Source: Pararhodobacter aggregans
Lineage (GTDB): Bacteria > Pseudomonadota > Alphaproteobacteria > Rhodobacterales > Rhodobacteraceae
Reading direction: 5' to 3'
Assembly: GCF_003075525.1 (NCBI RefSeq)
Contig: NZ_QDDR01000001.1
Location: 310,001 to 374,000 of the forward strand
Length of the DNA stretch: 64,000 nucleotides
Numbering within the stretch: position 1 is the first letter of the stretch; each line of letters starts with the position of its first letter. The position numbers were made by a program, and so were the translations under genes. The notes under the pieces were generated by a model. The model was not told the origin of the DNA, searched no databases, and saw only the letters and a program-made list of their open reading frames with translations. Shown piece after piece: positions 3,097 through 36,684 of the stretch.

Positions 3097-3100
3097 ATAG

Positions 3101-18891: not shown

Positions 18892-18914
18892 CGGGGTCTT
18901 TCCTGAAAGGGGGC

Positions 18915-19298: not shown

Positions 19299-19315
19299 CC
19301 GGGCAGCGGGGGGGT

Positions 19316-19345: not shown

Positions 19346-19355
19346 GGGCGAGGGC

Positions 19356-20318: not shown

Positions 20319-20366
20319 GGTTCCTCCGTTGGGATGTTGCGCCGGGCCTCCCCCCGGCAGGTGGGG

Positions 20367-21869: not shown

Positions 21870-21872
21870 GGT

Positions 21873-22355
21873 TTACCTCCAGAAGGCGCGGATCGGCAGT
21901 TCCAGAGCGACCAGGAACAGCGCCCAGCCGCCCAGCGCGGCCAGCACCGCGTAGATCAGGATCGGCAGCACCCGGTTGGTGCTGTCGCCGAATTTCGAGA
22001 TGGCGACGGCGGCGAACATCGCGGGGACCAGACCCGCGGGCTGGATCAGCCCGGCGAAGGCGAGGATCGAGGCCGAGACGAAGATCAGCCCCCGCCAGTG
22101 CAGGCCGGGCATGGCCAGATCCGGCTGCGGCCGCAGGTCGGCGATCAGGATCGCCAGCCCCATCAGGCAAAGCGCAACGCCGGTCCAGACCGGGACAAAG
22201 CCCGGGCCCATGTCGTAAAGGCGCCCCATCGGATAGTCGCGGGCGATGACCAGCAGGGCCGCGCCCAGCGCCAGCACCAGCCCGCCGCCGAGGGCGCGCT
22301 GGACCAGGCCGGGGACGCTGCGGGGCATCGTCGGGATCGGGTCGGGATGTGACAT
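21873..22355 (-). CDS. tctB: Tripartite tricarboxylate transporter small permease (TctB), first set
   Basis: 160 aa, four hydrophobic helices with the family start LGAALLVIARDYPMGRLYDMGPGFVPVWTGVALCLMG. It partners TctA. The gene lies 28 bases after the FMN reductase gene and just before tctA. Confidence 0.88.
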   Translation of the reverse strand: MSHPDPIPTMPRSVPGLVQRALGGGLVLALGAALLVIARDYPMGRLYDMGPGFVPVWTGVALCLMGLAILIADLRPQPDLAMPGLHWRGLIFVSASILAFAGLIQPAGLVPAMFAAVAISKFGDSTNRVLPILIYAVLAALGGWALFLVALELPIRAFWR

Positions 22356-22383
22356 GGGGTCTCCTTCCTTGCCGGATGGTCCG

Positions 22384-22956
22384 TCAGGCCTCGGTCAGCG
22401 CCGTCTGGCGGCTGTAGCGCAGGAATTGCTCCAGATGGCCGCGCAGGAAGGCCTCGGTCTGGGGATCGGTGATGCGCCCGGCCTCGACATCGAGCTTGGC
22501 GCGGGCCTGGGCGATCTGCACCTCGGGCTTGGCCATGATGCGCATGTCCTGCGAATGCAGCACGTGGCGCAGGCTCTCATGCACGCGGGCGCCGCCCAGA
22601 AGCCCGGGCGAGACGCTCCAGATCGCCACGGGTTTCCCCGCCAGCGGCACCGGCTGGGCGCGCGACACCCAGTCGATGGCGTTCTTCAGAGCGCCCGGCA
22701 CGGACCAATTGTATTCGGGGGTGACGATCAGGATGGCGTCGCAGCGGGTGACGGCGGCCAGCAGCGCCGCGACGCTTTCGGGCAGGCCCCGATCCATCAC
22801 GTCCTGGTCGAAAAGCGGCAGCGTGCCGGGATTGGGCAGCGTTTCGACGCTGAATCCCCCGGGCGCCAGCCCCGCCACGGCCCGGGCGGCGGCGCGCGAC
22901 AGCGAGGCGCTGCGCAGCGATCCTTCCCAGATGCCGAGATGCCGTTTGCCTGTCAC
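22384..22956 (-). CDS. NADPH-dependent FMN reductase family protein
   Basis: 190 aa from GTG 22956, chosen because GGGAGG lies five bases upstream and the flavodoxin-like fold begins right there (GIWEGSLRSASLSRAAAR, the FMN phosphate loop). Other marks: VTPEYNWSVPGALKNAIDWVSR, the flavin-contact and dimer motif. It could supply reduced flavin or reduce a quinone or azo-type compound. It is the first gene of the six-gene operon facing the GntR regulator, with a TTTTCGAAAA palindrome between the two. Confidence 0.87.
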   Translation of the reverse strand: MTGKRHLGIWEGSLRSASLSRAAARAVAGLAPGGFSVETLPNPGTLPLFDQDVMDRGLPESVAALLAAVTRCDAILIVTPEYNWSVPGALKNAIDWVSRAQPVPLAGKPVAIWSVSPGLLGGARVHESLRHVLHSQDMRIMAKPEVQIAQARAKLDVEAGRITDPQTEAFLRGHLEQFLRYSRQTALTEA

Positions 22957-23018
22957 GAAGACCTCCCTGACTCGTCTTGCTGCGGTCGGGGGTAGCACAC
23001 AGTTTCAGATAACTCAAA

Positions 23019-23032
23019 TATTTTCGAAAATA
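23019..23032. promoter_or_regulatory. TTTCGAAA operator candidate 1 (perfect 14-base palindrome)
   Basis: TATTTTCGAAAATA between the divergent FMN-reductase and GntR genes. It is the best copy of a motif also found at 27283, 33520 and 34457, each time in a promoter gap of the same catabolic region. Likely site of the GntR protein at 23178. Confidence 0.65.
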
Positions 23033-23077
23033 CGACGTTGATCGAAGGATCGACGAGTATATGCAAGAATTCTTTTT

Positions 23078-23089
23078 TTCTTCGAAAAT
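23078..23089. promoter_or_regulatory. TTTCGAAA operator candidate 2 (degenerate)
   Basis: TTCTTCGAAAAT, with a perfect right half and one changed base in the left half, about 90 bases before the GntR start. Probably an auxiliary site in the same divergent gap. Confidence 0.45.
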
Positions 23090-23177
23090 CACGCTATGCT
23101 GGAAGTTGATCGCCAGCGCCGGCGGGTTCTTGGGCGTGACAGGGCCGGGTAACGGGTCGAAGCTAAAGGTGGTACGC

Positions 23178-23903
23178 ATGACAATACGGTCCCTGCCCGC
23201 AACGGGGCGCGCGGTGGCAAAGACGGCGGCAGCGAAGGCCGAGGCCTCGACTGGCGGCCATGTCCTGACCCGGCTGCGCTCGGATATCGTCAGCAGCGAG
23301 TTCAAACCCTCGGCCCGGTTGAAATTCGCCGAACTGACCAAGCGCTACGATGTCGGCATCGGCACCCTGCGCGAGGCGCTGTCGCAGCTGGCCTCCGAAG
23401 GTTTCGTCACTGTCGAGGCGGGCAAGGGCTTCAAGGTTGCCCCCGTTTCGGCCGAGGAACTGGTCGAGATCACCGACCTTTTCATCAGCTTCGAGAAGCG
23501 GGCGATTCGCGAGGCCATCGCCGATGGCGACGAGGATTGGGAGGCCAATATCGTCGCCGTGCACCACCGGCTGAGCCTGATCGAGGGGCTGCCCTGGGCC
23601 GACCGGATGGAGCGGCATGCCGAATGGGTGCAGCGCCACCGCGAGTTCCACGAGGCGCTGGTTGCAGCCTGCCCGGGGCATTGGCTGCTCAGGCTCAGGA
23701 CGATGATGTTCGACCAGCTCGACCGCTACCGTTTCGTCACCAAGAACGCCTCGGAAAGCCAGGGGCGCAAGAAGTTCGACGAGCACCGCGAGATCATGCT
23801 GGCCACCATCGCCCGCGACGGCGACAAGGCCGCCGAACTGATCGAGAAGCACATCCGCGACACCTCGGACCGGGCGCTGACCATCCTGGCCCGCAACGGC
23901 TGA
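23178..23903 (+). CDS. GntR-family regulator (FCD subfamily), likely regulator of the aromatic catabolic region
   Basis: 241 aa from ATG 23178, with AAAGGTGG upstream; earlier in-frame ATG 23061 would run through the operator region. The winged helix (LRSDIVSSEFKPSARLKFAELTKRYDVGIGTLREALSQLASEGFV) is followed by a helical FCD domain with HREFHEALVAACPGHWLLRL and the C-terminal EHREIMLATIARD metal/ligand-site histidines typical of the family. It is divergent from the FMN reductase-Tct-aldehyde dehydrogenase operon and adjacent to the monooxygenase cluster; shared palindromes suggest it controls all of them. Confidence 0.93.
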   Translation: MTIRSLPATGRAVAKTAAAKAEASTGGHVLTRLRSDIVSSEFKPSARLKFAELTKRYDVGIGTLREALSQLASEGFVTVEAGKGFKVAPVSAEELVEITDLFISFEKRAIREAIADGDEDWEANIVAVHHRLSLIEGLPWADRMERHAEWVQRHREFHEALVAACPGHWLLRLRTMMFDQLDRYRFVTKNASESQGRKKFDEHREIMLATIARDGDKAAELIEKHIRDTSDRALTILARNG

Positions 23904-23948
23904 GGCCCCCGGCGGCGCGGGCAAGAAGCGCCGGGCCGGAGCCTCGGG

Positions 23949-24398
23949 TCAGCCCCGCCCGACGCTCGGCGCCGTCACCGCCTCGACCGGAGCAAGGCCG
24001 GGATGGCGCGTCAGGTAGTCGGCAAGTCCGGGGTCCTCGGCGTAGCGCGGCTGCTCGTCCCGGATCGTGTAATCCCGCCCCAGCTCCTGACGCAACAGCA
24101 TGAGAAGCCTATCCACATCGGCATTGAAGCGCTCGCAAAGGCCCTGTGACCACAGACTGGGATCGGTCGGGGAGAGCGGGTTCAGGTAGCCCGCATGCAG
24201 CGAGTCGAGGTGGTCGCGCAGGCACCGCGCCGCCACCGGGAGGGGCAGCCTGACCGGCGAGAGCAGCCGCCCGTCCAAGGCGAAGGTTCCGGCATCCAGC
24301 GGCCCGAGGCCAAGGCTCGACCGCGTCTCGTCGTCGCCCGCCCATAGGCAGCCGCCGGCGCCATAGTCGAAAAAGAATCTGAGAACGCCCCTGGTCAT
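23949..24398 (-). CDS. Hypothetical protein
   Basis: 149 aa; I do not recognise the family. It has no signal peptide or membrane helix and contains an aromatic N-terminus (VLRFFFDYGAGGCLWAGDDETR) followed by a mainly helical region with CLRDHLDSLHAGYLNPLSPTDPSLW and LLMLLRQELGRDY. Coding appearance is good (GC-rich third positions, no overlap with other genes), but no clear ribosome site precedes the ATG. It lies between the GntR gene and the terminator of the tctC/monooxygenase operon and may be unrelated to the catabolic genes. Confidence 0.6.
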   Translation of the reverse strand: MTRGVLRFFFDYGAGGCLWAGDDETRSSLGLGPLDAGTFALDGRLLSPVRLPLPVAARCLRDHLDSLHAGYLNPLSPTDPSLWSQGLCERFNADVDRLLMLLRQELGRDYTIRDEQPRYAEDPGLADYLTRHPGLAPVEAVTAPSVGRG

Positions 24399-24473
24399 GC
24401 CGGAAGGCTACGCGGTCGATCCGGCGCAGGGAAGGAGGGTCACGCCTGCGTGGCGGGCCCTCCCTCGACAGGA

Positions 24474-24502
24474 AAGCCCCGCGGCCGAACGGCGCGGGGC
24501 TT
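24474..24502 (-). terminator. Terminator of the monooxygenase-tctC operon
   Basis: AAGCCCCGCG and CGCGGGGCTT form a perfect ten-base stem with a nine-base loop, 23 bases past the tctC stop; the minus strand continues TTTCC. Confidence 0.7.
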
Positions 24503-24524
24503 GGTCTTTGTCAGGGGCGGCGCC

Positions 24525-25505
24525 TCAGTTGGCGGCGATGCCCGCCTCGCGGGTCAGCACTTCCATCTCGGCCAGGTCCCGCGCGACCAGATCGGCCAGC
24601 GCCGCCGGATCGCCGACCCGCGCCGTCGCCGCATTGGCGTCGAGCACTTCCTGCACCGCCGGGGTGGCGACGGCCTGGGCGAAGATGCCGGAGAGGGTGG
24701 TCACCACATCCTCGGGCGTGCCGGCCGGGGCGAAGACGGCGAACCAGAATTCCTTGTTCACCTGCGGGTAACCCAGTTCCCCCAGCGAGGGCACGTCGGG
24801 CAGGAAGGGCAGCCGTTCCGAGCCGGTCACCGCGATCACCCGCAGCGTCCCGTCATTGACGAAAGAGCGCGTCGGCCCATAGCCCGAGAACATGAAATCG
24901 ACCCGCCCGGTCGAGGTTTCCAGCAGCGCGGGCCCGCCGCCCTGAAAGGGCACGGCAACCATGTTGGCGCCGGTGGCGAGGCGCAGCTGTTCGCCCAGCA
25001 ATTGCCCGCCCGAGCCCAGGCCCTGCGTGGCAAAGCTCAAGCCGCCCGGCCGCCCGGCCGCCGCCGCCAGCAGATCGTCCAGCGTCTGGATCTCGCTGTC
25101 GCCCGGCACCACCAGCACATGCGGGAAGAGCATGATCTCGGTGACCGGCGCGAAATCGGCGACGGGGTCGTAGGTGATGTTCATCAGATAGGGGTTGATG
25201 GCATGGGTCGAGGCATTGCCGAAGAACAGCGTGTAGCCGTCGGCTTCGGCGTTCTTCACATACATCGCCGCGATCGAGCCACCGGCACCGGGGCGGTTCT
25301 CGACGATCAGCTGATGACCCATCTGCTGGCTGGCCTCGGCGGCGATGACGCGCATCACCTGATCGGTGCCGCCGCCGGGCGGGAAGGGCAGGACGATGGT
25401 CACGTCGCGCTCGGGAAAGGTATCGGCCGACGCGGGCAGGGCGAGCGGCGCCATCAGCGCGGTTGCCGCGATCAGGCTGCGGGTCAGGGTCGCAAATCGG
25501 GTCAT
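24525..25505 (-). CDS. tctC: Tripartite tricarboxylate transporter substrate-binding protein (TctC/Bug), second set
   Basis: 326 aa from ATG 25505 (GAGGAG upstream), signal peptide ending near LALPASA. Bug-family marks: FPERDVTIVLPFPPGGGTDQVMR, VENRPGAGGSIAAMYVKNAEADGYTL and PFQGGGPALLETSTGRVDFMF. It is cotranscribed with the aromatic monooxygenase and divergent from tctB-tctA of the same set, so the three transporter genes are split between two facing operons. The pairing with a monooxygenase suggests an aromatic carboxylate as ligand. Confidence 0.9.
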   Translation of the reverse strand: MTRFATLTRSLIAATALMAPLALPASADTFPERDVTIVLPFPPGGGTDQVMRVIAAEASQQMGHQLIVENRPGAGGSIAAMYVKNAEADGYTLFFGNASTHAINPYLMNITYDPVADFAPVTEIMLFPHVLVVPGDSEIQTLDDLLAAAAGRPGGLSFATQGLGSGGQLLGEQLRLATGANMVAVPFQGGGPALLETSTGRVDFMFSGYGPTRSFVNDGTLRVIAVTGSERLPFLPDVPSLGELGYPQVNKEFWFAVFAPAGTPEDVVTTLSGIFAQAVATPAVQEVLDANAATARVGDPAALADLVARDLAEMEVLTREAGIAAN

Positions 25506-25576
25506 GTCTCTCCTCCTCTGGTGCCCGGCGGGATGCCGGGGCTTGGGGCGGCGGCCCGGGGACCGCCGCCTGATTG

Positions 25577-27202
25577 TCAGGCGCCGGTGACGCGGGCGAT
25601 CAGCGCGCCGCAATCCCCGGGCAAGGCGTCGCCGCGCCAGGCGACATGGCCGTCCGGGCGCACCAGCACCAGCGGCGCGCCGTAAAGCGTCTCGATGGCG
25701 GGATCCGTCAGCCAATGGCTGCGCAGGCTGAGGTTGCGGGCCCGGGCGGCGCGGGCCAGCGCCTCGCCCTCGGGCGGCTGGGCGCCCAGACGCAGCAGCA
25801 CGAAGCCCTCGCCGAAAAGGTCGAGCGTCGACAGCCCCTCGCGCGCGCCGCCGCTGATCCAGGCATGCGGCGCACGGTGGCCCGGCCGGGCGCTGGGCTT
25901 GTACCAGCGCCAGTCGTCGCTGTCGGCCCCGGTCCCGTCGGGCGCGATGACCGGCGAGCCCTCGTAGCGGTAGCCAAGGTGTATGCCCAGCGTCTCCCAT
26001 TCCGTTTCGGTCGCCTTGGTGATCGTCTCGCCGACCCGGGCGCGGGCGGCTTCGCCCTCGGGCGTTTCATCAAGGATGCCCTTGCAATCCTGCACCGATT
26101 TCAGCTGCGAATAATTCCGGGTCGAGGCGCTGGAATTGCGCTGGGCGATCGGCCGCCGCTCGACCTCGTAGCTGGCCAGCAGCGACGGCCCGCCCCAGCC
26201 CTGCAGCATCGCCGCCAGTTTCCAGCCGAGGTTCTCGACATCGCCCATGCCGGTGTTCATGCCCAGCCCGCCGGTCGGCGACATCGTGTGCGCGCTGTCG
26301 CCGCAGAGCCAGACGCGGCCCCTTCCGTAGCTGTCGGCGGTCAGTTCCGTCCGCCGCCACGGCAGGGCCGAGATCACCTCGAACAACATGTCGTCGGTCC
26401 CCAGCGCCTTGCGCACCCAGGCGTCGGCGGTGCGGATCACCTCGTCCACGCCGTCCTTGTTCGACGGCACGGTCAGGCGCCACAGCTCATGCCCGTCCAT
26501 GGCCGAGATATTGCCCCACCAGCCATTCTCGCCGAGGAAATAATACCGCTCGGCATGGCCCATCTTGTGCTCGCCCCCCAGCGCGGCAGAGCGGAAAAAG
26601 ACGGCGACGGAATGATCCAGCTCCTGCTTGCCGGTCATGCCGATGTCGAGCGCCCGGCGCACGCGGCTGCCCGCCCCGTCGCAACCGACCAGATAGGCGC
26701 CCGACAGCACCGCTTGCGCGCCATCCGGCCCGGTCACGGTGACCGAGACGCCCTCGTCCTGATCGGCGAACGCGTCGAGGCTGGTGTTCAGCCGCAGGTC
26801 GATCAGCGGTTCGGCCTCGACCCGGGCCTGAAGCATCGGGTTGAGGAAGATCTGCGAGCAGCGCCACTTGGTTTCCGGGCTCTCGGCGATCGGGGGCTCG
26901 TCCTGAAGCGAGGGATAGGCGATGCGGCCGAGGAAATGCTGGGCGATGGTGGTGCAATAGACCATCGACAGGCCGAAATCGCGCCGGAACTCGGTGTCGC
27001 GCACGTCATCCGCCAGCCCCATGCGGCGGAAGATCTCCATCGTGCGGATGCCGACCAGGCCCAGCTTCGGCGTCTCGACCCGGCCGTCGGTGCGCTCGAT
27101 CAAGGTGCTGCGGATCCCCCGCCGCGCCAGGTCCAGCGCCAGCGTCATCCCGATGGGCCCCGCCCCGCAGATGATGACCTGTGTTTGGGTGCTGCTCGAC
27201 AT
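25577..27202 (-). CDS. FAD-dependent aromatic monooxygenase (phenol hydroxylase/MhpA type)
   Basis: 541 aa. N-terminal dinucleotide fold VIICGAGPIGMTLALDLARRG ends at the acidic Glu of LIER; the DG motif VGCDGAGSRVRRAL follows near residue 160 and the GD motif GRVWLCGDSAHTMSPTGGLGMN near residue 300; a thioredoxin-like C-terminal domain completes the TfdB/PheA/MhpA family layout. It would hydroxylate an aromatic ring with NAD(P)H and oxygen in the cytoplasm. Its gene is 71 bases upstream of tctC and faces tctBA across a TTTCGAAA palindrome. Confidence 0.93.
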   Translation of the reverse strand: MSSSTQTQVIICGAGPIGMTLALDLARRGIRSTLIERTDGRVETPKLGLVGIRTMEIFRRMGLADDVRDTEFRRDFGLSMVYCTTIAQHFLGRIAYPSLQDEPPIAESPETKWRCSQIFLNPMLQARVEAEPLIDLRLNTSLDAFADQDEGVSVTVTGPDGAQAVLSGAYLVGCDGAGSRVRRALDIGMTGKQELDHSVAVFFRSAALGGEHKMGHAERYYFLGENGWWGNISAMDGHELWRLTVPSNKDGVDEVIRTADAWVRKALGTDDMLFEVISALPWRRTELTADSYGRGRVWLCGDSAHTMSPTGGLGMNTGMGDVENLGWKLAAMLQGWGGPSLLASYEVERRPIAQRNSSASTRNYSQLKSVQDCKGILDETPEGEAARARVGETITKATETEWETLGIHLGYRYEGSPVIAPDGTGADSDDWRWYKPSARPGHRAPHAWISGGAREGLSTLDLFGEGFVLLRLGAQPPEGEALARAARARNLSLRSHWLTDPAIETLYGAPLVLVRPDGHVAWRGDALPGDCGALIARVTGA

Positions 27203-27282
27203 CCTGTTCTCCTCCCGGCCGTCGATGCCCGGCGCGGCGCGGACAGACCGGCCTGCACTGGGTAATTTTCGGCACAGTGATT

Positions 27283-27294
27283 ACTTTCGAAACT
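27283..27294. promoter_or_regulatory. TTTCGAAA operator candidate 3
   Basis: ACTTTCGAAACT, in the middle of the 197-base gap between the divergent monooxygenase and tctB genes. A half-site ATTTTCG lies 20 bases before it. Confidence 0.6.
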
Positions 27295-27399
27295 TATGTC
27301 AATTGTTGAATAATCGGATCTTTGCGATTAGGGTGCCCGGCAACCGCCTTCCGCGCGCTCCTGTCGCACGGGGCGCAGGACACAGCACGGGAGGGTTGG

Positions 27400-27858
27400 G
27401 TGTCTGAACCGAAATTCGAGATCTTTCAGGGCAATCTGGTCATCGGCGGGGTCCTCTCGCTGATCGGGGCCGGGGCGCTCTGGACCGGGCTGGGCTATGG
27501 CATGGGCAGCATGATGCGCGTCGGCGCCGGGGCCTTTCCGGTCGTCGTGTCGGGGCTGATGCTGGCCTGCGGGCTGGCGGTGATGGCCGAATCGCTCTGG
27601 GGCAGGGGACGGGCGGCGGTCATCCCGCTGGGCGCGCTGCGGGCCGGGCTGGGCCTTGTCGCGGCCATCGCCACCTTTGCCCTGACCATTCAGAGCCTGG
27701 GTCTGCTGGCGGCGGTGGCGCTTTGCGTCTTCTTCGTCTCGCTGGCGGGCCAGAGCGTCAACTGGCGCCACACTCTGGCGCTGATGGTGGTGCTGCCGCT
27801 CGCCTCGTGGCTCATCTTCGCGCTGGGCCTCGGCCAGCAATTGCACGCATTCGGGTAG
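27400..27858 (+). CDS. tctB: Tripartite tricarboxylate transporter small permease (TctB), second set
   Basis: 152 aa from GTG 27400, with GGAGGG five bases before it; the ATG at 27322 has no ribosome site. Four hydrophobic segments with GALWTGLGYGMGSMMRVGAGAFPVVVSG, the TctB signature. It lies seven bases ahead of tctA. Confidence 0.85.
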   Translation: MSEPKFEIFQGNLVIGGVLSLIGAGALWTGLGYGMGSMMRVGAGAFPVVVSGLMLACGLAVMAESLWGRGRAAVIPLGALRAGLGLVAAIATFALTIQSLGLLAAVALCVFFVSLAGQSVNWRHTLALMVVLPLASWLIFALGLGQQLHAFG

Positions 27859-27865
27859 GATCATC

Positions 27866-29371
27866 ATGCTGGACGGACTTCTCCTGGGCGTCGAGGTCGC
27901 GCTGTCGTGGCAGGGCCTGTTGATGTGCGCCATCGGCGTGACGCTGGGCACGGTCATCGGGGTGTTGCCGGGGATCGGGGTGCTGGCCTCGGTGTCGCTG
28001 CTGATGCCGATCACCTTCGGCTACCCGCCGGCCATCGGGCTCATCATGCTGTCGGGCGTGTTCTACGGCGCCGCCTATGGCGGCTCGACCACCTCGATCC
28101 TGATGAACCTGCCGGGAACCGCGAACACGGCCGTCACCTGTCTGGACGGTCATCCGATGGCGCAGCAGGGGCGGGCGGGGGTCGCGCTGTTCATCACCAC
28201 CATCGCCTCGTTCATCGGCTCCATCGGCGGGGCCATCGTGCTGGCGGTGCTGTCGATGCCGCTGGCCAATCTGGCGCGCAACTTCGGCTCGCAGGAGTAT
28301 CTGGCGGTCATGGTGCTGGGCCTGATGGCGGCCGCGGCCTTCGCCACCTACGGGCTGGCGCGGGCCATGGCGATGACGGCGCTGGGCATCCTGATCGGTC
28401 TGATCGGCATCGACCTCAACACCGGGCTCGAGCGCTATACCTTCGGCATGCCGTCCCTTTTCGACGGGGTGCCGATCGTGGCCATCGCCATCGGCCTGTT
28501 CGGCCTGCCCGAGGTTCTGGCCAATCTCTCGCGCCGGGATGAGGCCCCGCCGCCGGTCATCTCGGTCACGCTGCGCGAGATGCTGCCCACGCGCGAGGAC
28601 ATGCGCCGCTCGACCCCCTCGATGGTCCGGGGCGGGCTGGTCGGCTGCCTGTTCGGCATCCTGCCCGGTGCGGGGAGCCTGCTGGCCTCGTTCATGTCCT
28701 ACGCGGTCGAGCGCAATTCCTCGAAAACCCCCGAGAAGTTCGGCACCGGCATGATCGAGGGGATCGCCGGCCCCGAGACGGCCAACAACGCCGCCATCCA
28801 GACCGCCTTCATCCCGACGCTGAGCCTGGGCGTGCCGGGCGATTCGACCATGGCCATCGTGCTGGTGGCGCTGATCTATCACGGCATCGACCCGGGGCCG
28901 AATTTCGTCACCCAGCACCCGAACATCTTCTGGGGCCTGATCGTCAGCTTCCTGATCGGCAACCTGATGCTGCTGGTGCTGAACCTGCCGTTCATCGGTC
29001 TGTGGGTGAAAATGCTGCGGATCCCCAATTCGATCCTCTATCCCGCCATCGTCGTCTTCAGCTGCATCGGCGTATACAGCGTCCGGCTGATGCCCAGCGA
29101 CCTGTTCCTGATGGCTGGCTGCGCGGTGCTGGGCTACCTGATGCGCAGTTTCCGGCTGGATGCGCCGCCGCTGCTTCTGGGCTTCGTTCTGGGGCCGATG
29201 ATGGAGGAGCATTTCCGCCGCACCCTGCTGATTTCGCGCGGCGATCCGGCCGCCTTCCTGTCGACCGGGCTGACCTGGGGGATCTACCTGCTGATGATCG
29301 CCATGGTCGGCTGGTCGCTGTGGCGCAACGCCCTGACCAGGCGGCGGGTGAAGGCACAGGCGGCGGGCTGA
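27866..29371 (+). CDS. tctA: Tripartite tricarboxylate transporter large permease (TctA), second set
   Basis: 501 aa, about twelve helices. Family blocks: GVLPGIGVLASVSLLMPITFGYPPAIGLIMLSGVFYGAAYGGS near residue 30 and GPETANNAAIQTAFIPTLSLGVPGDSTMA near residue 300. Start ATG has AGGAT upstream. With TctB it forms the membrane part of the second transporter, whose binding protein is in the divergent operon. The operon ends at the strong terminator at 29396. Confidence 0.93.
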   Translation: MLDGLLLGVEVALSWQGLLMCAIGVTLGTVIGVLPGIGVLASVSLLMPITFGYPPAIGLIMLSGVFYGAAYGGSTTSILMNLPGTANTAVTCLDGHPMAQQGRAGVALFITTIASFIGSIGGAIVLAVLSMPLANLARNFGSQEYLAVMVLGLMAAAAFATYGLARAMAMTALGILIGLIGIDLNTGLERYTFGMPSLFDGVPIVAIAIGLFGLPEVLANLSRRDEAPPPVISVTLREMLPTREDMRRSTPSMVRGGLVGCLFGILPGAGSLLASFMSYAVERNSSKTPEKFGTGMIEGIAGPETANNAAIQTAFIPTLSLGVPGDSTMAIVLVALIYHGIDPGPNFVTQHPNIFWGLIVSFLIGNLMLLVLNLPFIGLWVKMLRIPNSILYPAIVVFSCIGVYSVRLMPSDLFLMAGCAVLGYLMRSFRLDAPPLLLGFVLGPMMEEHFRRTLLISRGDPAAFLSTGLTWGIYLLMIAMVGWSLWRNALTRRRVKAQAAG

Positions 29372-29395
29372 TCCCGCCGCCAGAGGGGCAAAGCG

Positions 29396-29431
29396 AAACC
29401 CCCGCGCCGGAGTTCCGGCGCGGGGGTTTTT
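29396..29431. terminator. Bidirectional terminator between tctA and CoA-transferase genes
   Basis: AAACCCCCGCGCCGG and CCGGCGCGGGGGTTT form a perfect 15-base stem with loop AGTT, flanked by T on the plus side and by A on the minus side. It lies 24 bases after the tctA stop and 14 bases before the last codon of the convergent CoA-transferase gene, serving both. Confidence 0.88.
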
Positions 29432-29444
29432 CGTGGGAAGCGCC

Positions 29445-30605
29445 TCAGTCGCGGGCCGAAAACGCCCAGTCGCCGGTCCCCAGTGCCGGGGCCGCCCGGT
29501 CCAGCGCCAGATCGCTGCGCGAAAAGCGCAGGGGCGAGCGCAGGCCCGCCAGCCCCTCGGGCGCGATCTTCAGGTCGCGGGCCAGGACCTGCGGCTCTTC
29601 CAGCGCCTCGGCCACCGTGTTGATCGGCCCGCCGGGGACGCCGTTGGCCTCCATCAACGCGATCAGCGCGGCCTTGGTGTGGCGGGTGGTCGCCTCGGCC
29701 AGCAGGGGGCACAGCGTCTGGCGATGCGCGACGCGGGCCGGGTTGGTGGCATAATCGGGGTTCCCCGGCAGGTCGGGCAGATCCAGCACCCGGCAGAAGG
29801 CCGCGAATTGCCGGTCATTGCCGCAGGCGACGATCACATGCCCGTCCGAGGCCGGAAACACCTGATAGGGCACGATATTCGGATGCGCATTGCCCAGCCG
29901 GGTGGGGGTCACCCCGCCCAGCAGGTAATTCGTTGCCTGATTGGCCAGCACCGCCACGCCGCAATCCAGCAAGGACAGGTCCAGATGCTGGCCCCGGCCG
30001 GACCGCGCCCGCTCGGTCAGCGCCGCCTGAATGCCGATCACCCCGTAAAGCCCGGTGAAGATGTCGATCCAGGCCACGCCCACCTTCTGCGGCTCGCCCG
30101 CGGGATCGCCGGTCAGGTCCATGATCCCGCTCATGCCCTGCACGAGGAAATCGTAGCCCGGTAGGGCGGCGCGGGGGCCGGTCTGGCCGAAGCCGGTGAC
30201 CGAGGCATAGACGAGGCGCGGGTTCAGCACGCTCAGGCTCTCGTAATCGAGGCCGAACTTCCGCAGGCCCCCCAGCTTGAAATTCTCGACCAGCACATCG
30301 GCTTCGGCGATGAGGTCGCGCAGACGGGCCAGGTCGCCCTCGTTCTGGAAATCGCAGATGACCGAGGTCTTGCCCCGGTTCGCCGCGTGGAAATAGGCGG
30401 CGACCGTCTCGGTGCCGCCGCCGGGCAGCGGGCGCTCGATGAAAGGCGGGCCCCAGCGGCGGGTATCGTCGCCCTCGGGCGCCTCGATCTTGATGACCTC
30501 GGCGCCGAGGTCGGCCAGCGTCTGGCCGATCCAGGGCCCGGCGAGGATGCGCGCCAGTTCGACGACGCGCAGCCCCTTGAGGGGCGCAGCCGCCTCAGAG
30601 GTCAT
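29445..30605 (-). CDS. Class III CoA-transferase (CaiB/BaiF family)
   Basis: 386 aa. Typical order: LKGLRVVELARILAGPWIGQTLADLGAEVIKIE at the N-terminus, FHAANRGKTSVICDF near residue 75, GQTGPRAALPGYDFLVQGMSGIMDLTG near 140-165, and HRQTLCPLLAEATTRHTKAALIALMEANGVPGGPINT near the C-terminus. These enzymes move CoA between carboxylic acids. It overlaps the dehydrogenase gene by 11 bases and is last in the operon starting with the VOC gene; it probably activates an acid product of ring cleavage. Confidence 0.92.
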   Translation of the reverse strand: MTSEAAAPLKGLRVVELARILAGPWIGQTLADLGAEVIKIEAPEGDDTRRWGPPFIERPLPGGGTETVAAYFHAANRGKTSVICDFQNEGDLARLRDLIAEADVLVENFKLGGLRKFGLDYESLSVLNPRLVYASVTGFGQTGPRAALPGYDFLVQGMSGIMDLTGDPAGEPQKVGVAWIDIFTGLYGVIGIQAALTERARSGRGQHLDLSLLDCGVAVLANQATNYLLGGVTPTRLGNAHPNIVPYQVFPASDGHVIVACGNDRQFAAFCRVLDLPDLPGNPDYATNPARVAHRQTLCPLLAEATTRHTKAALIALMEANGVPGGPINTVAEALEEPQVLARDLKIAPEGLAGLRSPLRFSRSDLALDRAAPALGTGDWAFSARD

Positions 30606-31626
30606 AGGGAACCGCCACGCCCAGCCTGCCCGCCAGCGCCGCCAGATTGGCGGCAGTGCCGGCGGCCAGCGGGATGCCCTCGGCCCTGCGTCGTGCTGCG
30701 GTCTGCGCGCCGCGCTCGCCCGGCAGCAGCACCGCGTCGGTGCCGGGGGCGGGGGGCAGGGCGTGGATCTGGTCGACCAGCAGCCGGACCGAAGCCAGGA
30801 AAACCTCGGTCGCGCCGAAGGCCGCCGGGTCGATGGCCAGCACCATGCCGTTGAACCCGCCCTTCTTCGTCCCCTCCAGCACCGGGCCGATCACCGGATT
30901 GCCCGCCAGTACGCTGGTCAGAAGCTCGATCATCAGCGACAGGCCCGAGCCCTTCGCCCCCGCCATCGGCAGAAGCGAGGTCACGGCGGCGGGGTCGGTC
31001 GTCTCGCGCCCCTCGGCATCGACGCCCCAGCCCCTGGGGATCGCCCGCCCGTTCTCCTTGGCGGCCATGATCTTGCCCAGGGCCACGGCGGCGGTGGACA
31101 TGTCCAGCACCACCGGCTCGGCGCCCGGGACCGGCACGGCGATGGCGAGGGGGTTGGTGGACAAGGCCTCGCCCACCGCGCCATGATAGTTCATCAGGGG
31201 TTTCGAGGCCGTCATCGCCAGCCCCACCAGCCCCTGCCGGGCCAGCGCGCTGGTGAAATAGCCGACCGCGCCGGCATGGCTGATCCGTCGTACGGCGCAC
31301 CAGCCCAACCCCTGCACGCGGGCCAGGTCGGCCGCCTTGGCGACGGCCGCGTTCATCCCCACCGCGCCCGGGCATTTGCCGCCATCGAGCAGGCAGACCG
31401 CGCCGCGCTCGCTCACCGTCTCGATGCTGCCGCCCGACAGCATGACGCCCGTCTCGATCATCTCCAGATACCGCGGGATGCGCAGCACCCCGTGGCTGTC
31501 GACGCCGCGCAGGTTGGCCCAGACCAGCAGCTCGGCGGTCTGGGTGGCATCGGCATTGGTGAACCCGCCCGCGCAGAGCAGGTCATGGGCGAAACGGCGC
31601 AGGACGGCGGCGTCGATCTGGGGCAT
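30595..31626 (-). CDS. Malate/L-lactate dehydrogenase (Ldh) family oxidoreductase
   Basis: 343 aa. The family signature GVDSHGVLRIPRYLEMIETG is near residue 40, and VRRISHAGAVGYFTSALARQGLVGLAMT carries the conserved histidine. Members reduce 2-oxo acids or imines with NAD(P)H (malate, sulfolactate, ureidoglycolate and others). In this operon a 2-hydroxy or 2-oxo acid from the aromatic pathway is a likely substrate. Confidence 0.9.
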   Translation of the reverse strand: MPQIDAAVLRRFAHDLLCAGGFTNADATQTAELLVWANLRGVDSHGVLRIPRYLEMIETGVMLSGGSIETVSERGAVCLLDGGKCPGAVGMNAAVAKAADLARVQGLGWCAVRRISHAGAVGYFTSALARQGLVGLAMTASKPLMNYHGAVGEALSTNPLAIAVPVPGAEPVVLDMSTAAVALGKIMAAKENGRAIPRGWGVDAEGRETTDPAAVTSLLPMAGAKGSGLSLMIELLTSVLAGNPVIGPVLEGTKKGGFNGMVLAIDPAAFGATEVFLASVRLLVDQIHALPPAPGTDAVLLPGERGAQTAARRRAEGIPLAAGTAANLAALAGRLGVAVPYDL

Positions 31627-31644
31627 CTGTCGGTCTTTCCAGCG

Positions 31645-32523
31645 TCAGGCCGAGAGGGGCGTCGGGAAGAACTTGTCCAGCCAGCCCTTCATCATCGCCT
31701 TGGTGCGCGGCGCATCCTGGGGCGAGAGCGGGAAATGCGCCATCGTGTCGACCAGCATCAACTCCTTGGGATGGCCCGCCTTTTCCCACAGCCGCACCGA
31801 TTCAATCGTCGGCGTGATCGTGTCATTGGCGGTGTGGAACAACAGCAGCGGCCGCGGTGCGATGTTCGCCACCACATCGTCGGCACGGAAATTGCGCATC
31901 GACCAGGCGGTTTCGGTGGGGATCTCCATGATGGCCTTGGGCGAGAGGTTGGCACGCAGCGCGGGCGGTATCGGCACGGCGTCGAAGCGCGACATCCAGG
32001 CGCTTTCGCCGGTCTCCTGCTTGTGCTTGCGGCCCTCGTCCAGGATCGTCACGAACTTGGTCCAGCTTTCCTCGGTCGGGTGCTGGCCGCGGAACTTGCG
32101 CTCGCCATCGCCCCAGCCGCAGGAGGACAGGCAGCAGGCGACGCGTTCGTCGACCCCGGCGGTATAGACCGAGACGGCGGCACCGAAGCTGTGGCCGGTG
32201 ATGCCGATGCGCTTGGCATCGACCTCGGGGCGCCTGGCCAGCCAGGTCAGCGCGTTCTTGGCGTCGGCCACCTGATCCATGCAGCGGACCTGCGCCCGCT
32301 CGCCTTCTGATTCACCGCAGCAGCGGAAATCGAAGCGCAGCGCGACATAGCCGAACTCCTCCATCATCTCGGCCTGGATCTGGGCATGGCTCTCGTCCTT
32401 GGAGCCGACGAAACCATGGCAGACGATGAAGGCGGGCAGCGGCGTGCCGTCATAGCCATCGGGGATATGCACGACGCCCGAGAGTTTCAGCCCGTCGGAG
32501 TCGAAGGTGATCTTTTCCTGCAT
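31645..32523 (-). CDS. Alpha/beta hydrolase, prolyl-oligopeptidase/DLH-like
   Basis: 292 aa, cytoplasmic. Nucleophile Ser112 in GHSFG, likely Asp234 in HTANDTITP and His263 in MAHFPLS complete the triad; the oxyanion loop is VCHGFVGSKDE. It resembles small dipeptidyl-aminopeptidase-like esterases and dienelactone hydrolases. Location between the VOC gene and the Ldh gene suggests hydrolysis of an ester, lactone or ring-fission product. Confidence 0.88.
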   Translation of the reverse strand: MQEKITFDSDGLKLSGVVHIPDGYDGTPLPAFIVCHGFVGSKDESHAQIQAEMMEEFGYVALRFDFRCCGESEGERAQVRCMDQVADAKNALTWLARRPEVDAKRIGITGHSFGAAVSVYTAGVDERVACCLSSCGWGDGERKFRGQHPTEESWTKFVTILDEGRKHKQETGESAWMSRFDAVPIPPALRANLSPKAIMEIPTETAWSMRNFRADDVVANIAPRPLLLFHTANDTITPTIESVRLWEKAGHPKELMLVDTMAHFPLSPQDAPRTKAMMKGWLDKFFPTPLSA

Positions 32524-32544
32524 TGTCAGGCTCCTTGTTCCGGT

Positions 32545-33450
32545 TCAGGCCAGCGCCATGAAGGGGAAGAAATGCTCGCGCCATTCGAGGGGCGCGGGCG
32601 TGCCCCAGACGTTCATCACCCGCACATTGCCGGGCCGTTCGAGGTTGGTGATGATGTTGGCTTCGAAATGCGCGTCATCGGCCACCGTCGACATGGGGCC
32701 CGCGCATTCGACCATCGCGCCCGAGCTGTCGAGGTAATAGGCATAGGTGTTGTCGCCCGGCCGGTGGCGGCCCGGGCCCCAGATGAACTGCCGGTCGTAA
32801 TCGTCCAGCAGGTCGCCCAGACGGCAGTACATGTTGAATTCGGGGAATTCGAACGAGTAATGGTGCAGCCCGGCGGCATGGCTTTTGACGATGCCGAGGA
32901 TGTGGTGCTGGCGGTTGCCGCCATAGAGCCAGGTGAGCGAGTCGTTCACCATCTTTTCCGACATGCCCAGATCGCCGATCGCCTTGAGCTGGCGCACGGT
33001 GGCCTGCGGATCGGGGCTGAGCAGGTTCATGTGGTCCAGCCGCCGCGGTGCCACGCCGGGCGTCGCCTGACGCGGGTTGTGGATGTCGTTGCGGATCGGC
33101 GTGTGGATCTCGAATTGCAGGCCCTCGGGCGTGGCGAAGGTGACGCCCGCGTCCATGCAATCGAGGCTCGGCTCGCGCGCGGTGATGCGGCAGCCCGCGC
33201 CCTCGACCCGGGCGGCGGCAGCCTCGACATCGGCGGCGGTCAGTGCTTCCAGCCCGATGGTGTGGGTCGAGTTCTCGGTAGCCTCGACCAGCACCAGTTC
33301 GGCCTTGCGCCCGTTCGAGCTGAGCCAGACCTGACCCTGGCCCTCATGCGTCACGCGCAGGCCGAGGATCTCGGTCGAGTCGCGCACCACATCGGCGATG
33401 CAGCTGGTGTTGAGCTTCACATGCCCCACGGCGTGGACGATCTGGGCCAT
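32545..33450 (-). CDS. VOC-family extradiol dioxygenase-like protein
   Basis: 301 aa made of two paired vicinal-oxygen-chelate modules, the size of catechol 2,3-dioxygenases. Probable iron ligands in the C-terminal half: His140 in RLDHMNL, His196 or His197 in GLHHYSFE and Glu248 in GAMVECAG. This arrangement supports ring-cleaving activity on a catechol-type compound, but other VOC enzymes share it. It is first in the operon with hydrolase, dehydrogenase and CoA-transferase, and three TTTCGAAA-like sites lie upstream. Confidence 0.86.
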   Translation of the reverse strand: MAQIVHAVGHVKLNTSCIADVVRDSTEILGLRVTHEGQGQVWLSSNGRKAELVLVEATENSTHTIGLEALTAADVEAAAARVEGAGCRITAREPSLDCMDAGVTFATPEGLQFEIHTPIRNDIHNPRQATPGVAPRRLDHMNLLSPDPQATVRQLKAIGDLGMSEKMVNDSLTWLYGGNRQHHILGIVKSHAAGLHHYSFEFPEFNMYCRLGDLLDDYDRQFIWGPGRHRPGDNTYAYYLDSSGAMVECAGPMSTVADDAHFEANIITNLERPGNVRVMNVWGTPAPLEWREHFFPFMALA

Positions 33451-33519
33451 AGGCCGCCTCCCTCAATGCGAACGATTCCGGTATCGCGGTTGTAGAGAGG
33501 AATTTTGAAAGACGCAAGA

Positions 33520-33531
33520 AGTTTCGAAAAT
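33520..33531. promoter_or_regulatory. TTTCGAAA operator candidate 4
   Basis: AGTTTCGAAAAT, 70 bases upstream of the VOC gene start. A looser copy AATTTTGAAA lies 20 bases closer to the gene. Confidence 0.6.
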
Positions 33532-33538
33532 CTGATGT

Positions 33539-33550
33539 ATTCCGAAAAAC
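33539..33550. promoter_or_regulatory. TTTCGAAA operator candidate 5 (one mismatch)
   Basis: ATTCCGAAAAAC, 19 bases from candidate 4, in the short gap between the VOC start and the FAH gene stop. One base differs from the core. Confidence 0.35.
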
Positions 33551-33556
33551 GCCGGA

Positions 33557-34399
33557 TCAGCGGGGCTCGGCCCCGTCCTGCACCACCCGGTTGCGCAACA
33601 GGCCGAGGCCCGGCACCTCGACCTCGACCAGATCGCCGGGGGCCAGGAATTCCGGCGGTTTGCGGGTGGCGCCGAAGCCCGAGGGCGTGCCGGTGACGAT
33701 CACGTCACCGGGGGCCAGCGGAGTGAAGCTGGACATGTAGGCGATCAGCCAGGCCGGATCGAAGATCATGGTCGACAGCGCCACCTGCTGCTTGACCACG
33801 CCGTTGACCCGGGTCCGAAGCACCAGCGCCGACAGATCCGGCACCGAGTCGCGGCTGACCATCCAGGGGCCGAAGGCGCCGCTTTCCCAGAAGTTCTTGC
33901 CGGGCGTGAACTGGGTCGAGTGCTTCTGCCAGTCCCGCACCGAGCCGTCGTTGAACAGCGCGTATCCGGCAATATGGCTTTGGGCACGCTCGCGCGGGAT
34001 CCGGTGGCCGGGCTTGCCGATGATGAGCGCCACCTCGCCCTCGTAGTCGAACCTCTCGGACGCCGCGGGTTTCCGCAGCGGCTGATCGTGGCCGGTCAGC
34101 GATTCGGCGAAGCGGGTGAAGACCAGCGGATAGGCAGGCGCCTCCTTTCCGGCCTCGTGGAAATTCGTCGCGACGCAGAGCACCTTGCCCGGATCCGGCA
34201 CCGGCGGCAGATAGGTCAGCCCCGCCAGCGGCAGCACCGGCGCCGCGGACAGATCGGGGCGGAACCCTTCGGCGAGGCGGGGCAGCAGCGCTTTCAGGGT
34301 GGGCGGCAGGCCGGGCAGGGTATCCAGCCGGTGCAGGCTTTCCCCCTGAACGACGCCATAGATCACCTGCGCACCAAGGCGGAAACTGGCGTAGTTCAT
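33557..34399 (-). CDS. Fumarylacetoacetate hydrolase family protein
   Basis: 280 aa from ATG 34399. FAH fold marks: VLCVATNFHEAGKE, then FDYEGEVALIIGKPGHRIPRERAQSHIAGYALFNDGSVRDWQ with the metal-binding acids, and DVIVTGTPSGFGATRKPPEFLAPGD near the C-terminus. Members hydrolyse or decarboxylate and isomerise ring-cleavage products of aromatic pathways (fumarylpyruvate, 5-carboxymethyl-type diacids). It has its own promoter gap with a TTTCGAAA site, placing it in the same proposed regulon. Confidence 0.92.
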   Translation of the reverse strand: MNYASFRLGAQVIYGVVQGESLHRLDTLPGLPPTLKALLPRLAEGFRPDLSAAPVLPLAGLTYLPPVPDPGKVLCVATNFHEAGKEAPAYPLVFTRFAESLTGHDQPLRKPAASERFDYEGEVALIIGKPGHRIPRERAQSHIAGYALFNDGSVRDWQKHSTQFTPGKNFWESGAFGPWMVSRDSVPDLSALVLRTRVNGVVKQQVALSTMIFDPAWLIAYMSSFTPLAPGDVIVTGTPSGFGATRKPPEFLAPGDLVEVEVPGLGLLRNRVVQDGAEPR

Positions 34400-34456
34400 C
34401 GGGGGCGTCCTTCCGGCGGAAATTTGAAATCGTCTCAGATTATCGGCATATAGCAA

Positions 34457-34468
34457 ATTTTCGAAACT
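34457..34468. promoter_or_regulatory. TTTCGAAA operator candidate 6
   Basis: ATTTTCGAAACT, 58 bases upstream of the FAH-family gene start. It matches the copies at 23019 and 27283 in ten of twelve bases or better. Confidence 0.6.
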
Positions 34469-34555: not shown

Positions 34556-35683
34556 TCAGCTCTCGCCCCAGATCGCCTGCGCGGTGCTGACCACCAGCTC
34601 CAGCTTGCGCTTCTCGTATTCCACCGTGATCGCGTTGCCGTGCTCGGTCGAGGCGAAACCGCATTGCGGGGCGATGCCCAGCTGGTCGAGATCGACGTAT
34701 TTCGACGCCTCGTCGAATTTCGCCTTCAGCCAGTCTGGGCTTTCCAGCGTGCCGGTCTTGGTGGTGATGAACCCGGCCATGACCCGCTTGTGGCCCTTGG
34801 GCAGCAGCTTCAGCGGCTCCAGCCCGCCCGCGCGCTCGGTGTCGTATTCCATGAAATAGACATCGACCGAGGTGCGGTTGAAGATCGCATCGGCGGCAAG
34901 GTCATAGCCCCCCTCGGCCACATGCGACGAGCGGAAATTGCCGCGGCACATGTGCATGCCGATCACCATATCCTCGGGCCGGTCCTTGATCGCCTCTTCC
35001 AGCATCCAGGCATAGGTATCGACCAGCTTGTCGGGGTCCTGGCCCTTGGCGCGGCGCATCTCGCGCTGTTTGGGATCCGAGAGATAGGCGAAGAAGATGT
35101 CGTCCAGTTGCAGATAGCGGCAGCCCGCATCGTAGAAGGCCTGCACGGCTTTCTTGTAGGTCTTGGCGATGTCCTGAACCATCAGGTCCGGGTCACGGTA
35201 GGGGGCGTGGTCGATATTCTCGGGCTCCATGCGGAAATGGCAGGCCGAGGGGCCGGGGATCGAGATTTTGGCCACGCCATCCTCCGGGCTGACCAGCCCC
35301 TGCAGATAGGTGAAATGGCGCAGCATCGGGTGGTCGGCCGGGAAATCCAGCGGCCCGGTCAGATGCGGCTCGATGGGCGGCGTCTTGTGCTCGGTCTTGA
35401 AATCCAGCGATTTGGTCGCGGCTTTCATGTCGAGCCCGGTCAGCATGCCCATGAAATCGTAATGCCAGAAGGCCCGGCGCGCCTCGCCATCGGTAAAGAC
35501 CTTGAGGCCGGTCGCCCGTTGCAGATCGACCAGCTCGCGGATGCCCGCATCCTCGATGGCGGTCAGTTCATCGGCCGGGACAGGGGCGTTGCGCGCGGCC
35601 TGGATCGCGGCCGGGCGCAGCAGCGAGCCGACATGGTCCGCGCGATGCGGCGCGCGGCGTTTGGGGGTGTTGGTGTCGATCAT
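34556..35683 (-). CDS. MetE C-terminal-like (cobalamin-independent methyltransferase) protein
   Basis: 375 aa, about half the length of full MetE, so it has only the catalytic barrel. It begins RADHVGSLLRPAAI, and the probable zinc ligands are in GMHMCRGNFR and APQCGFAS, both typical of the family; YLQLDD is also conserved. These short homologues transfer methyl groups from unusual donors, or to homocysteine from a non-folate donor; the donor here is unknown. It is a single-gene unit with its own terminator, divergent from nothing and 107 bases from the LysR gene. Confidence 0.88.
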   Translation of the reverse strand: MIDTNTPKRRAPHRADHVGSLLRPAAIQAARNAPVPADELTAIEDAGIRELVDLQRATGLKVFTDGEARRAFWHYDFMGMLTGLDMKAATKSLDFKTEHKTPPIEPHLTGPLDFPADHPMLRHFTYLQGLVSPEDGVAKISIPGPSACHFRMEPENIDHAPYRDPDLMVQDIAKTYKKAVQAFYDAGCRYLQLDDIFFAYLSDPKQREMRRAKGQDPDKLVDTYAWMLEEAIKDRPEDMVIGMHMCRGNFRSSHVAEGGYDLAADAIFNRTSVDVYFMEYDTERAGGLEPLKLLPKGHKRVMAGFITTKTGTLESPDWLKAKFDEASKYVDLDQLGIAPQCGFASTEHGNAITVEYEKRKLELVVSTAQAIWGES

Positions 35684-35790: not shown

Positions 35791-36684
35791 TCATGAGGGT
35801 GACGCCATGTTCGCCGCCCTCAGCAGCGCCAGGAAATTCTCGGCGGCGCGGCTGCGGTGGCGCGGGCGGTGGCTGAGGGCGGTGAAGCGGCGGGCGGGGA
35901 AGGGGGCAGGCCCCTCGAAGACCCGGCCCCGCTCGCAATGCGGCGCGGCGGCCAGATCCGACAGCACGCTGGCCCCGCGCCCGGTCTCGATGGCGGCGAC
36001 GCAGGCCTCGTTCGACGGCAGTTCCAGCATCGGCGCCACCGGCCCGATGCCCAGCGCCGCCAGCGCCTCGTCCACCGTGGCGCGGGTGCCGGACCCCGGC
36101 TCGCGCAGCACCCAATCCGCGCCCGCCAGATCGTCCGGCCCCAGCCGCTGGCGCCCGCGCCAGGGATGGTCCCGGCCCACCAGCAACACCAACCGGTCGC
36201 CGCCGATGGTCTCGACCGCCAGATCCGAGCCTTCGACGCGCCCCTCGACCAGCCCCAGATCGGTCTCTCCCGCCCGCACCGCGGCCAGGACCGAGGCGGT
36301 ATTGCCCTGCCTGAAATCCAGCGCGACGCGGGGGTGGCGGGTCTGGAAGGCGATCAGATGCCGGGGCAGGAAATAGCTGGCGACGGTCTGGCTGGCCTGA
36401 AGGCGCAGGGTGCCGACCTCGCCGCCGCGCAGATCCGCGAGCCAGGCCTCGGCCTCGCGCGCCCGGGCCAACAGCGCCTCGGCCCGGGGTAGGAACAGCC
36501 GCCCCGCCTCGTTCAGCGCGATCCCCCGGCCGACCCGGTCGAAAAGCGCGACGCCATGCTGCGCCTCCAGCGCCTGCACCGAGGCGCTGACCGCCGATTG
36601 CGTCAGGTTCAGCACCTCGGCGGCGCGGGTGACGTGCTGAAGCCGGGCCACGGCCAGGAAGATGCGGAGCTGTTCCAGGGTCAT
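35791..36684 (-). CDS. LysR-family regulator (YeiE-like by context)
   Basis: 297 aa. Winged helix at the N-terminus (MTLEQLRIFLAVARLQHVTRAAEVLNLTQSAVSASVQALE) and effector-binding domain with LRLQASQTVASYFLPRHLIAFQTRHP, close to the YeiE/CysL type. It is divergent from a yeiH-like gene with 93 bases between them, the same pairing as yeiE-yeiH, where YeiE answers to sulfite. The gap holds a loose inverted repeat ATCATT/AATAAT at 36700-36719 that could be its site. Confidence 0.9.
   Translation of the reverse strand: MTLEQLRIFLAVARLQHVTRAAEVLNLTQSAVSASVQALEAQHGVALFDRVGRGIALNEAGRLFLPRAEALLARAREAEAWLADLRGGEVGTLRLQASQTVASYFLPRHLIAFQTRHPRVALDFRQGNTASVLAAVRAGETDLGLVEGRVEGSDLAVETIGGDRLVLLVGRDHPWRGRQRLGPDDLAGADWVLREPGSGTRATVDEALAALGIGPVAPMLELPSNEACVAAIETGRGASVLSDLAAAPHCERGRVFEGPAPFPARRFTALSHRPRHRSRAAENFLALLRAANMASPS

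Follow-up and report, generated by a model that had tools for sequence, protein, structure and literature searches.

The locus and its palindromes

The window analyzed here is a stretch of 64 kb from Pararhodobacter aggregans (assembly GCF_003075525.1, contig NZ_QDDR01000001.1, positions 310,001 to 374,000; positions below are those of the window unless another contig or locus is named). It contains a region of putative aromatic uptake and ring-cleavage genes, among them the gene for an FCD-type GntR regulator, with copies of the palindrome TTTCGAAA in the gaps between the genes (Table 1). These copies are very probably the operators of an aromatic ring-cleavage regulon, as judged from comparison of related sequences. 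The gene list of a preliminary description of this region was essentially right, with six transcription units rather than five; that each run of genes forms one transcript is suggested by common strand and short gaps. Operator 1 lies between unit 1 and the GntR gene, which are divergent, and operator 2 between units 2 and 3, likewise divergent.

Table 1. Genes, operators and inferred promoter boxes of the aromatic region (window positions).
Feature	Positions	Strand	Remarks
Unit 1	17455-22956	-	six genes, one strand, gaps <60 bp
ALDH	17455-18891	-	unit 1
YciI-like	18915-19298	-	unit 1
TctC	19356-20318	-	unit 1
TctA	20367-21869	-	unit 1
TctB	21873-22355	-	unit 1
FMN reductase family	22384-22956	-	unit 1 head; GTG start
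Inferred -10, unit 1	22989-22994	-	TACCCC; from aligned promoters, TA here in 14/14
Inferred -35, unit 1	23012-23017	-	TTGAGT; 4 bp from operator core; from aligned promoters
Operator 1	23019-23032	.	TATTTTCGAAAATA, core TTTCGAAA at 23022-23029; between unit 1 and GntR; kept in orthologues
Weaker second site	23080-23087	.	CTTCGAAA; before GntR, 58 bp from operator 1
FCD-type GntR regulator	23178-23903	+	Pfam GntR and FCD; recognition helix VGIGTLREALSQL
Unit 2	24525-27202	-	FAD aromatic monooxygenase 25577-27202, TctC2 24525-25505
Operator 2	27285-27292	.	TTTCGAAA; between units 2 and 3; outer half-sites TTC (-22) and GAA (+19), from alignment
Unit 3	27400-29371	+	TctB2 27400-27858, TctA2 27866-29371
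Unit 4	29445-33450	-	four genes
CaiB-type CoA transferase	29445-30605	-	unit 4
Ldh2	30595-31626	-	unit 4
S15-type alpha/beta hydrolase	31645-32523	-	unit 4
VOC extradiol dioxygenase-like	32545-33450	-	unit 4
Inferred -10, unit 4	33489-33494	-	TACAAC; from aligned promoters
Inferred -35, unit 4	33512-33517	-	TTGCGT; 4 bp from operator core; from aligned promoters
Operator 3	33522-33529	.	TTTCGAAA; 71 bp upstream of VOC; flanked by weak sites 33503-33510 and 33540-33547
Unit 5	33557-34399	-	fumarylacetoacetate hydrolase family protein (FAH)
Operator 4	34459-34466	.	TTTCGAAA; 59 bp upstream of FAH

Exact TTTCGAAA occurs four times in the window, with no further copy, against 0.19 expected (mean of 100 shuffles; largest 2), in line with the earlier estimate of less than one copy per 64 kb. 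As the preliminary description had it, all four lie in gaps, outside the genes called by a purpose-made codon-usage gene caller. The first is enclosed in a perfect 14-bp palindrome, also as described; the 23021-23030 given for it corresponds to the inner 10-mer, of which the core is the central eight bases. The two degenerate copies reported at 23078 and 33539 are present at slightly different positions, 23080-23087 and 33540-33547 (TTCCGAAA), and a third, TTTTGAAA, is at 33503-33510. With up to one mismatch allowed there are 14 matches in the window where 6.6 are expected, a number reached in 1 of 100 shuffles; such matches are only mildly enriched, so that the signal resides in the exact copies.

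Frequent occurrence throughout the genome had been named as what would speak against a regulon, and the motif is not common: the 5.08-Mb host genome holds 36 copies, where the reversed control has 3. Outside the window there are 32, and 25 of these fall within genes called by the same caller while seven do not (an upper bound, the L052 site looking coding by eye); in the window none of the four falls within a called gene (Fisher p=0.006). The four intergenic sites lie within 11.4 kb, as against 36 copies per 5.08 Mb. The 12-mer AKTTTCGAAAMT is found exactly at four places in the genome, three of them in the window (23020-23031, 33520-33531, 34457-34468), and with one mismatch at operator 2 and seven other places. 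The motif is concentrated in the aromatic region of the window.

Conservation in related clusters

Close relatives of the window GntR are rare. Scanning of named genome contigs gave 15 GntR relatives: eight share 65-84% identity, with L078 among them evidently duplicating the contig L002/L040; L085 is 57% identical, and the remaining six 32-40%. Among 148 other genomes of the family, G142 is the sole one with a GntR above 41% identity in the rows listed, and among 389 other genomes of the order only G489, G446 and G300 have one at E 1e-50 or better. The ring-cleavage cluster is also present in other alphaproteobacterial records.

The comparison set consisted of the window and 11 clusters (L077-L084, L103-L105), whose GntRs are 62-84% identical to that of the window; L081 is from the cultured species Flavimaricola marinus. 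The preliminary description had proposed a motif search on orthologous regions, and its outcome strongly supports the regulon reading. With the window included, and with some start codons extrapolated from tblastn alignments, exact TTTCGAAA is found no more than 250 bp upstream of VOC in 11/11 loci holding its start, of FAH in 10/11 and of GntR in 10/12; the other 255 palindromic 8-mers, counted in the same promoters, average 0.04-0.06 loci each, and the best rival reaches 4. The distance to VOC is 62-75 bp in all 11 loci, and the 58-bp spacing between operator 1 and the weaker second site is the same in L077, L002/L078 and L079. Nearly all exact sites in the 12 stretches (27 of 30) precede VOC, FAH, GntR, FMN reductase or the monooxygenase/TctB2 pair by no more than 300 bp; of the other three, L083 has two and L105 one.

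Gene order varies among these clusters. The TctBAC-YciI run recurs, joined by ALDH in L077, L080, L103, L104 and L105, and among the relatives is headed by FMN reductase only in L077-L079; in L080, L081, L083, L103 and L104 FMN reductase adjoins VOC instead, and there it is without an exact TTTCGAAA of its own. The palindrome has thus been kept before the same genes despite rearrangement, so that the regulon looks real. That the motif follows both these genes and the orthologous GntR through the varied orders also bears out the resident GntR as the likely binder, as first proposed.

The monooxygenase has no match in the 11 other clusters, in stretches extending no further than about 10 kb from GntR on each side; operator 2, in front of it, carries outer half-sites (see below). 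Either the regulon acquired the monooxygenase/second-Tct block here, or the other genomes have it elsewhere or have lost it. At the far end of the region, the Meth_synt_2 (34556-35683) and LysR (35791-36684) genes have no exact TTTCGAAA within 300 bp upstream. No Meth_synt_2 relative was found in the 11 other clusters, and LysR relatives there, in L079, L083 and L105, are only 28-38% identical. A second FCD GntR gene (16651-17301) adjoins the ALDH end of unit 1; no relative of it was labelled in L077-L091, the range covered for this gene, L103-L105 not having been searched. In G142, paired copies of TTTCGAAA, spaced 24 bp from start to start, occur at three places on contigs C10, C46 and C67, perhaps double operators of another regulator or a repeat.

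Composite operator and putative promoter geometry

The preliminary description had not noticed the operator layout, the geometry of the promoters or a possible additional target on another contig. In an alignment of 25 operators, left when three near copies were removed from 28 and all but one (TTTCGAAT) picked for TTTCGAAA, the consensus is A(T/G)TTTCGAAA(A/C)T, of which the 12-bp dyad is ATTTTCGAAAAT; TTC occupies -21 to -19 and, less strongly, GAA occupies +19 to +21. In the 50 half-operators TTC is at -21 in 27 and at -22 in 12, other offsets having about one each. The four operators of the window come from different promoters, and in all of them the left TTC is at -21 or -22; the right GAA is exact in two (shifted by 1 bp in one) and degenerate in the other two. 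The composite operator seen in the alignment is new here: ATTTTCGAAAAT is flanked, at a distance of 18-19 bp, by outer TTC/GAA half-sites. Among nine TTTCGAAA sites of more distant GntRs, GAA stands exactly at +19 in two and TTC exactly at -21 in none; as these mostly lack exact outer half-sites, the composite layout is established for the orthologues only. The upstream gaps of two GntRs at 43-45% identity (L097, L102), which adjoin an FAH gene 41-42% identical to that of the window, contain TTTCGAAA with GAA at +19.

The fourth exact genomic AKTTTCGAAAMT, and the sole one outside the cluster, is at G000:C11, about 77716-77718 (L066 position 2501). It lies upstream of an amidohydrolase gene (2579-4069, + strand of L066), with a TTC outer half-site by eye. 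The amidohydrolase (G000:C11:77716) is a possible distant target of the regulon.

In 14 aligned VOC and FMN-reductase promoters (L084 left out), TTG is found 4 bp past the operator core in 12 and TA 27 bp past it in all 14, preceded immediately by TG in 11. We infer promoters with the TTG in a -35-like box and, after a 17-bp spacer, the TA in an extended -10-like box. The -35 box of both genes sits between the core dyad and an outer half-site, so that protein bound there should exclude polymerase; such locking of the operator to the -35 box suggests occlusion. The place of the FAH operator differs: in the window it is apparently inside the -35/-10 spacer (by eye), and in six loci (L080-L082, L084, L103, L105) it is 15-19 bp from the start codon.

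Regulator family and operator specificity

The GntR protein scores 51.2 bits with Pfam PF00392 and 54.5 bits with PF07729, past both cut-offs, which places it in the GntR family, FCD type. Its best NCBIfam match, across most of its length, is CsiR (NF008576); identity as a CsiR equivalog was rejected at 165.2 bits, below the cut-off of 218.

A wider view comes from 117 distant GntR homologues, 29-45% identical, a non-random sample, since most come from a single family and similarity decided their ranking. Within 420 bp upstream, TTTCGAAA occurs in nine of them as against 1.6 in shuffles (largest 5), and some A/T-flanked TCGA palindrome in 31 as against 4.7 (largest 10), the other 86 having none; A/T-flanked TATA-centred palindromes are likewise enriched (12/117 vs 2.0 in shuffles). 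A bulky residue in the recognition helix accompanies TTTCGAAA in 18 of 19 cases, as against 7 of 21 with TATCGATA/AATCGATT, where the other 14 have a small one (Fisher p=6e-5); with orthologues removed the figures are 8/9 and 7/21 (p=0.014), both comparisons being post hoc and uncorrected for kinship. On a quick FastTree tree, well-supported branches force at least six changes of the TTTCGAAA label.

The recognition helix GFSPLREAL is shared by ten GntRs, of which eight of the nine outside the host genome, and the host's own on contig C10, adjoin a gentisate 1,2-dioxygenase-like gene (the latter at 313 bits against a cut-off of 442). This gentisate-linked group (L018, L034, L037, L039, L111, L130, L144, L148 and the own C10 gene) resembles the window regulon in that the gap between regulator and dioxygenase-like gene has a ATTTTCGAAAAT-type dyad; it differs in its GntRs, only 34-39% identical, and in its ring-cleavage pathway. 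Exact TTTCGAAA is in the shared gap for 6/10 GFSPLREAL GntRs; L037 (CTTCGAAA), L144 and the own genome (TTTCGCAAA/TTTGCGAAA) are one base off, and L033 by more. At the own C10 locus (L074, G000:C10:101000-108000), the paralogous GntR gene (2989-3678, -) diverges from the gentisate 1,2-dioxygenase-like gene (3838-4962, +), and between them stands ATTTGCGAAAAT (opposite strand: ATTTTCGCAAAT), which differs from the window regulon's dyad by a single base. Elsewhere, 6 of 39 GntR homologues (L001-L039) have ATAT-N3-ATAT in the 450 bp upstream, where 0.12 are expected, perhaps the operator of another GntR subgroup.

Pathway and substrate

Residues H140, H197 and E248 of the VOC protein are invariant in 10/10 orthologues; we take them to be the 2-His-1-Glu metal set that defines the type I extradiol dioxygenases. 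In the PDB the protein matches 3b59 best and, next to it, homoprotocatechuate and catechol 2,3-dioxygenases. An extradiol meta-cleavage pathway is likely. A catechol 2,3-dioxygenase equivalog (TIGR03211) was considered and rejected, at 89.2 bits with a cut-off of 320. None of the enzymes scanned, VOC, ALDH and FAH included, reached a curated NCBIfam equivalog cut-off; for the monooxygenase the one model passed is NF004780, whose subfamily bears the name "hypothetical protein". Naming the substrate from NCBIfam and PDB matches gave no name. The regulon of about 17 kb put forward in the preliminary description is supported by conservation of the motif with the genes, while its uptake and cleavage of one aromatic acid is unproven; with two Tct transporters, and a monooxygenase seen only in this cluster, there may be more than one substrate.

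Relation to known systems

A local GntR regulator of aromatic genes is a well-known idea; what is new is the variant of it found here. The AphS/BphS regulators of phenol/biphenyl genes, of the GntR family, have the motif AAATmTCGAkATTT (PMC6449761), and BphS on its operator blocks RNA polymerase when the pathway intermediate HOPD is absent; BphR1 of KF707, also a GntR protein, is described as an activator of bph genes (PMC10282184). The likeness to AphS/BphS is one of operator motif and gene linkage: an even, TCGA-centred palindrome with A/T-rich flanks, multiple sites, and linkage to extradiol meta-cleavage genes. At ±3 from the center, where AphS/BphS have m/k, as in TATCGATA, the present operators have T/A (25/25 of the aligned set, which was picked for TTTCGAAA bar one). 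The outer half-sites described here may be a further difference, and Tct transporters, Ldh2, the CoA transferase and the S15-type hydrolase set the gene content apart. No sequence named AphS or BphS was among the plasmid matches (best 25 of 393 records).

Pseudomonas putida CsiR, the csiD repressor, gives one footprint covering both the -10 and the -35 of its target (PMC6667623); besides the equivalog score, its target genes are other ones. The FadR subfamily shares with the present protein the FCD effector domain, and with its operator a palindrome plus weaker flanking boxes; its consensus is TKGT/ACMA, and some groups have weaker half-sites 7-12 nt from the site center (PMC4494728). The aligned core here has no such GT/AC boxes, and the outer half-sites are 19-22 nt from the center. 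In the open-access papers searched, none was found that pairs GntR with TTTTCGAAAA; matches listed for TTTCGAAA alone included no apparent GntR study, and a search on GntR, Tct transporter, extradiol dioxygenase and operator gave none on this cluster by title.

Proposed mechanism and alternatives

On the reading favored here, the GntR/FCD protein would bind the 12-bp dyad as a dimer, and the outer TTC/GAA half-sites on either side would assist binding, perhaps cooperatively, at the four promoter regions. It would repress six transcription units, its own gene among them, that serve to take up an aromatic compound and open its ring by extradiol cleavage; at VOC and FMN reductase the bound protein would keep RNA polymerase off the -35. 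By analogy with BphS, the pathway substrate or a ring-cleavage product may be the effector that releases it. Sites, conservation, layout and spacing can be read off directly; that the GntR protein binds these sites is highly likely, and that it represses is likely, with somewhat less assurance. The proposal as a whole is quite probable.

Several points weigh against it. In L079 and L083 GntR is preceded by one-mismatch sites only, and in L083 FAH has no exact copy; L085, with a GntR 57-58% identical, is without a site, its neighbors also being different. Orthologous promoters share descent, and L082 and L084 are near copies, so that the loci are not independent trials. No convincing -10 is seen towards the monooxygenase (by eye). 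The operator is upstream of the -35 at VOC and FMN reductase, and in the spacer or near the start codon at FAH. The paralogous C10 GntR has an operator one core base apart, making cross-binding possible. A fixed place just upstream of the -35 would also fit an activator.

Could the GntR protein be such an activator at VOC and FMN reductase, recruiting polymerase with its effector as BphR1 would? The near-fixed core spacing to the -35- and -10-like boxes in 14 promoters and the distance of the -10 boxes from TATAAT agree with this, and a GntR activator of bph genes has been described (PMC10282184); yet at these promoters the outer half-site falls between -35 and -10, the FAH operators are elsewhere, in six loci so close to the start codon as to suit blocking, and CsiR (PMC6667623) and BphS (PMC10282184) are presented there as repressors. 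Activation is on balance rather unlikely. The sites might instead belong to another regulator, whether the gentisate-linked C10 paralogue, the second FCD GntR or the LysR protein, with the resident GntR using other DNA. The almost identical dyad of the gentisate-linked GntRs speaks for this, but the motif tracks the resident GntR orthologues and precedes their own gene in most loci, the C10 paralogue has ATTTGCGAAAAT in its own gap, and the LysR relatives are distant and the second GntR unlabelled in the clusters as given above; we consider it very improbable. Chance palindromes in AT-rich gaps would agree with the mild enrichment of one-mismatch matches and with the impression, not measured, that gaps are AT-richer than genes; the 11/11 VOC promoters make chance very unlikely, and the 100 shuffles of the window and the comparison with all other palindromic 8-mers in the orthologous promoters also count against it, leaving it a practically negligible probability.

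Significance

With repression by the resident GntR as the favored account, the ring-cleavage cluster gains a likely regulator, an operator and a promoter geometry, and a catabolic module, the monooxygenase with the second Tct, is seen to have the same operator. A broader conjecture, tentative and at somewhat less than even chances, is that a branch of FCD GntRs associated with aromatic ring-cleavage genes uses TCGA-centred palindromes instead of the GT/AC boxes of the FadR subfamily. A residue of the recognition helix would determine the flanking pairs: one of the bulky F, I or V for TTTCGAAA, and for TATCGATA/AATCGATT mostly one of the small A, S, P or G, or else the GLSPLREAV type. The central dimer would be supplemented by half-sites some 18 bp further out, with the -35 enclosed, an arrangement that other members may share, and extradiol and gentisate regulators would be insulated from each other in one genome by a single core base. 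The pairing of helices and palindromes offers a start for reading the operator specificity of FCD GntR proteins from the recognition helix.

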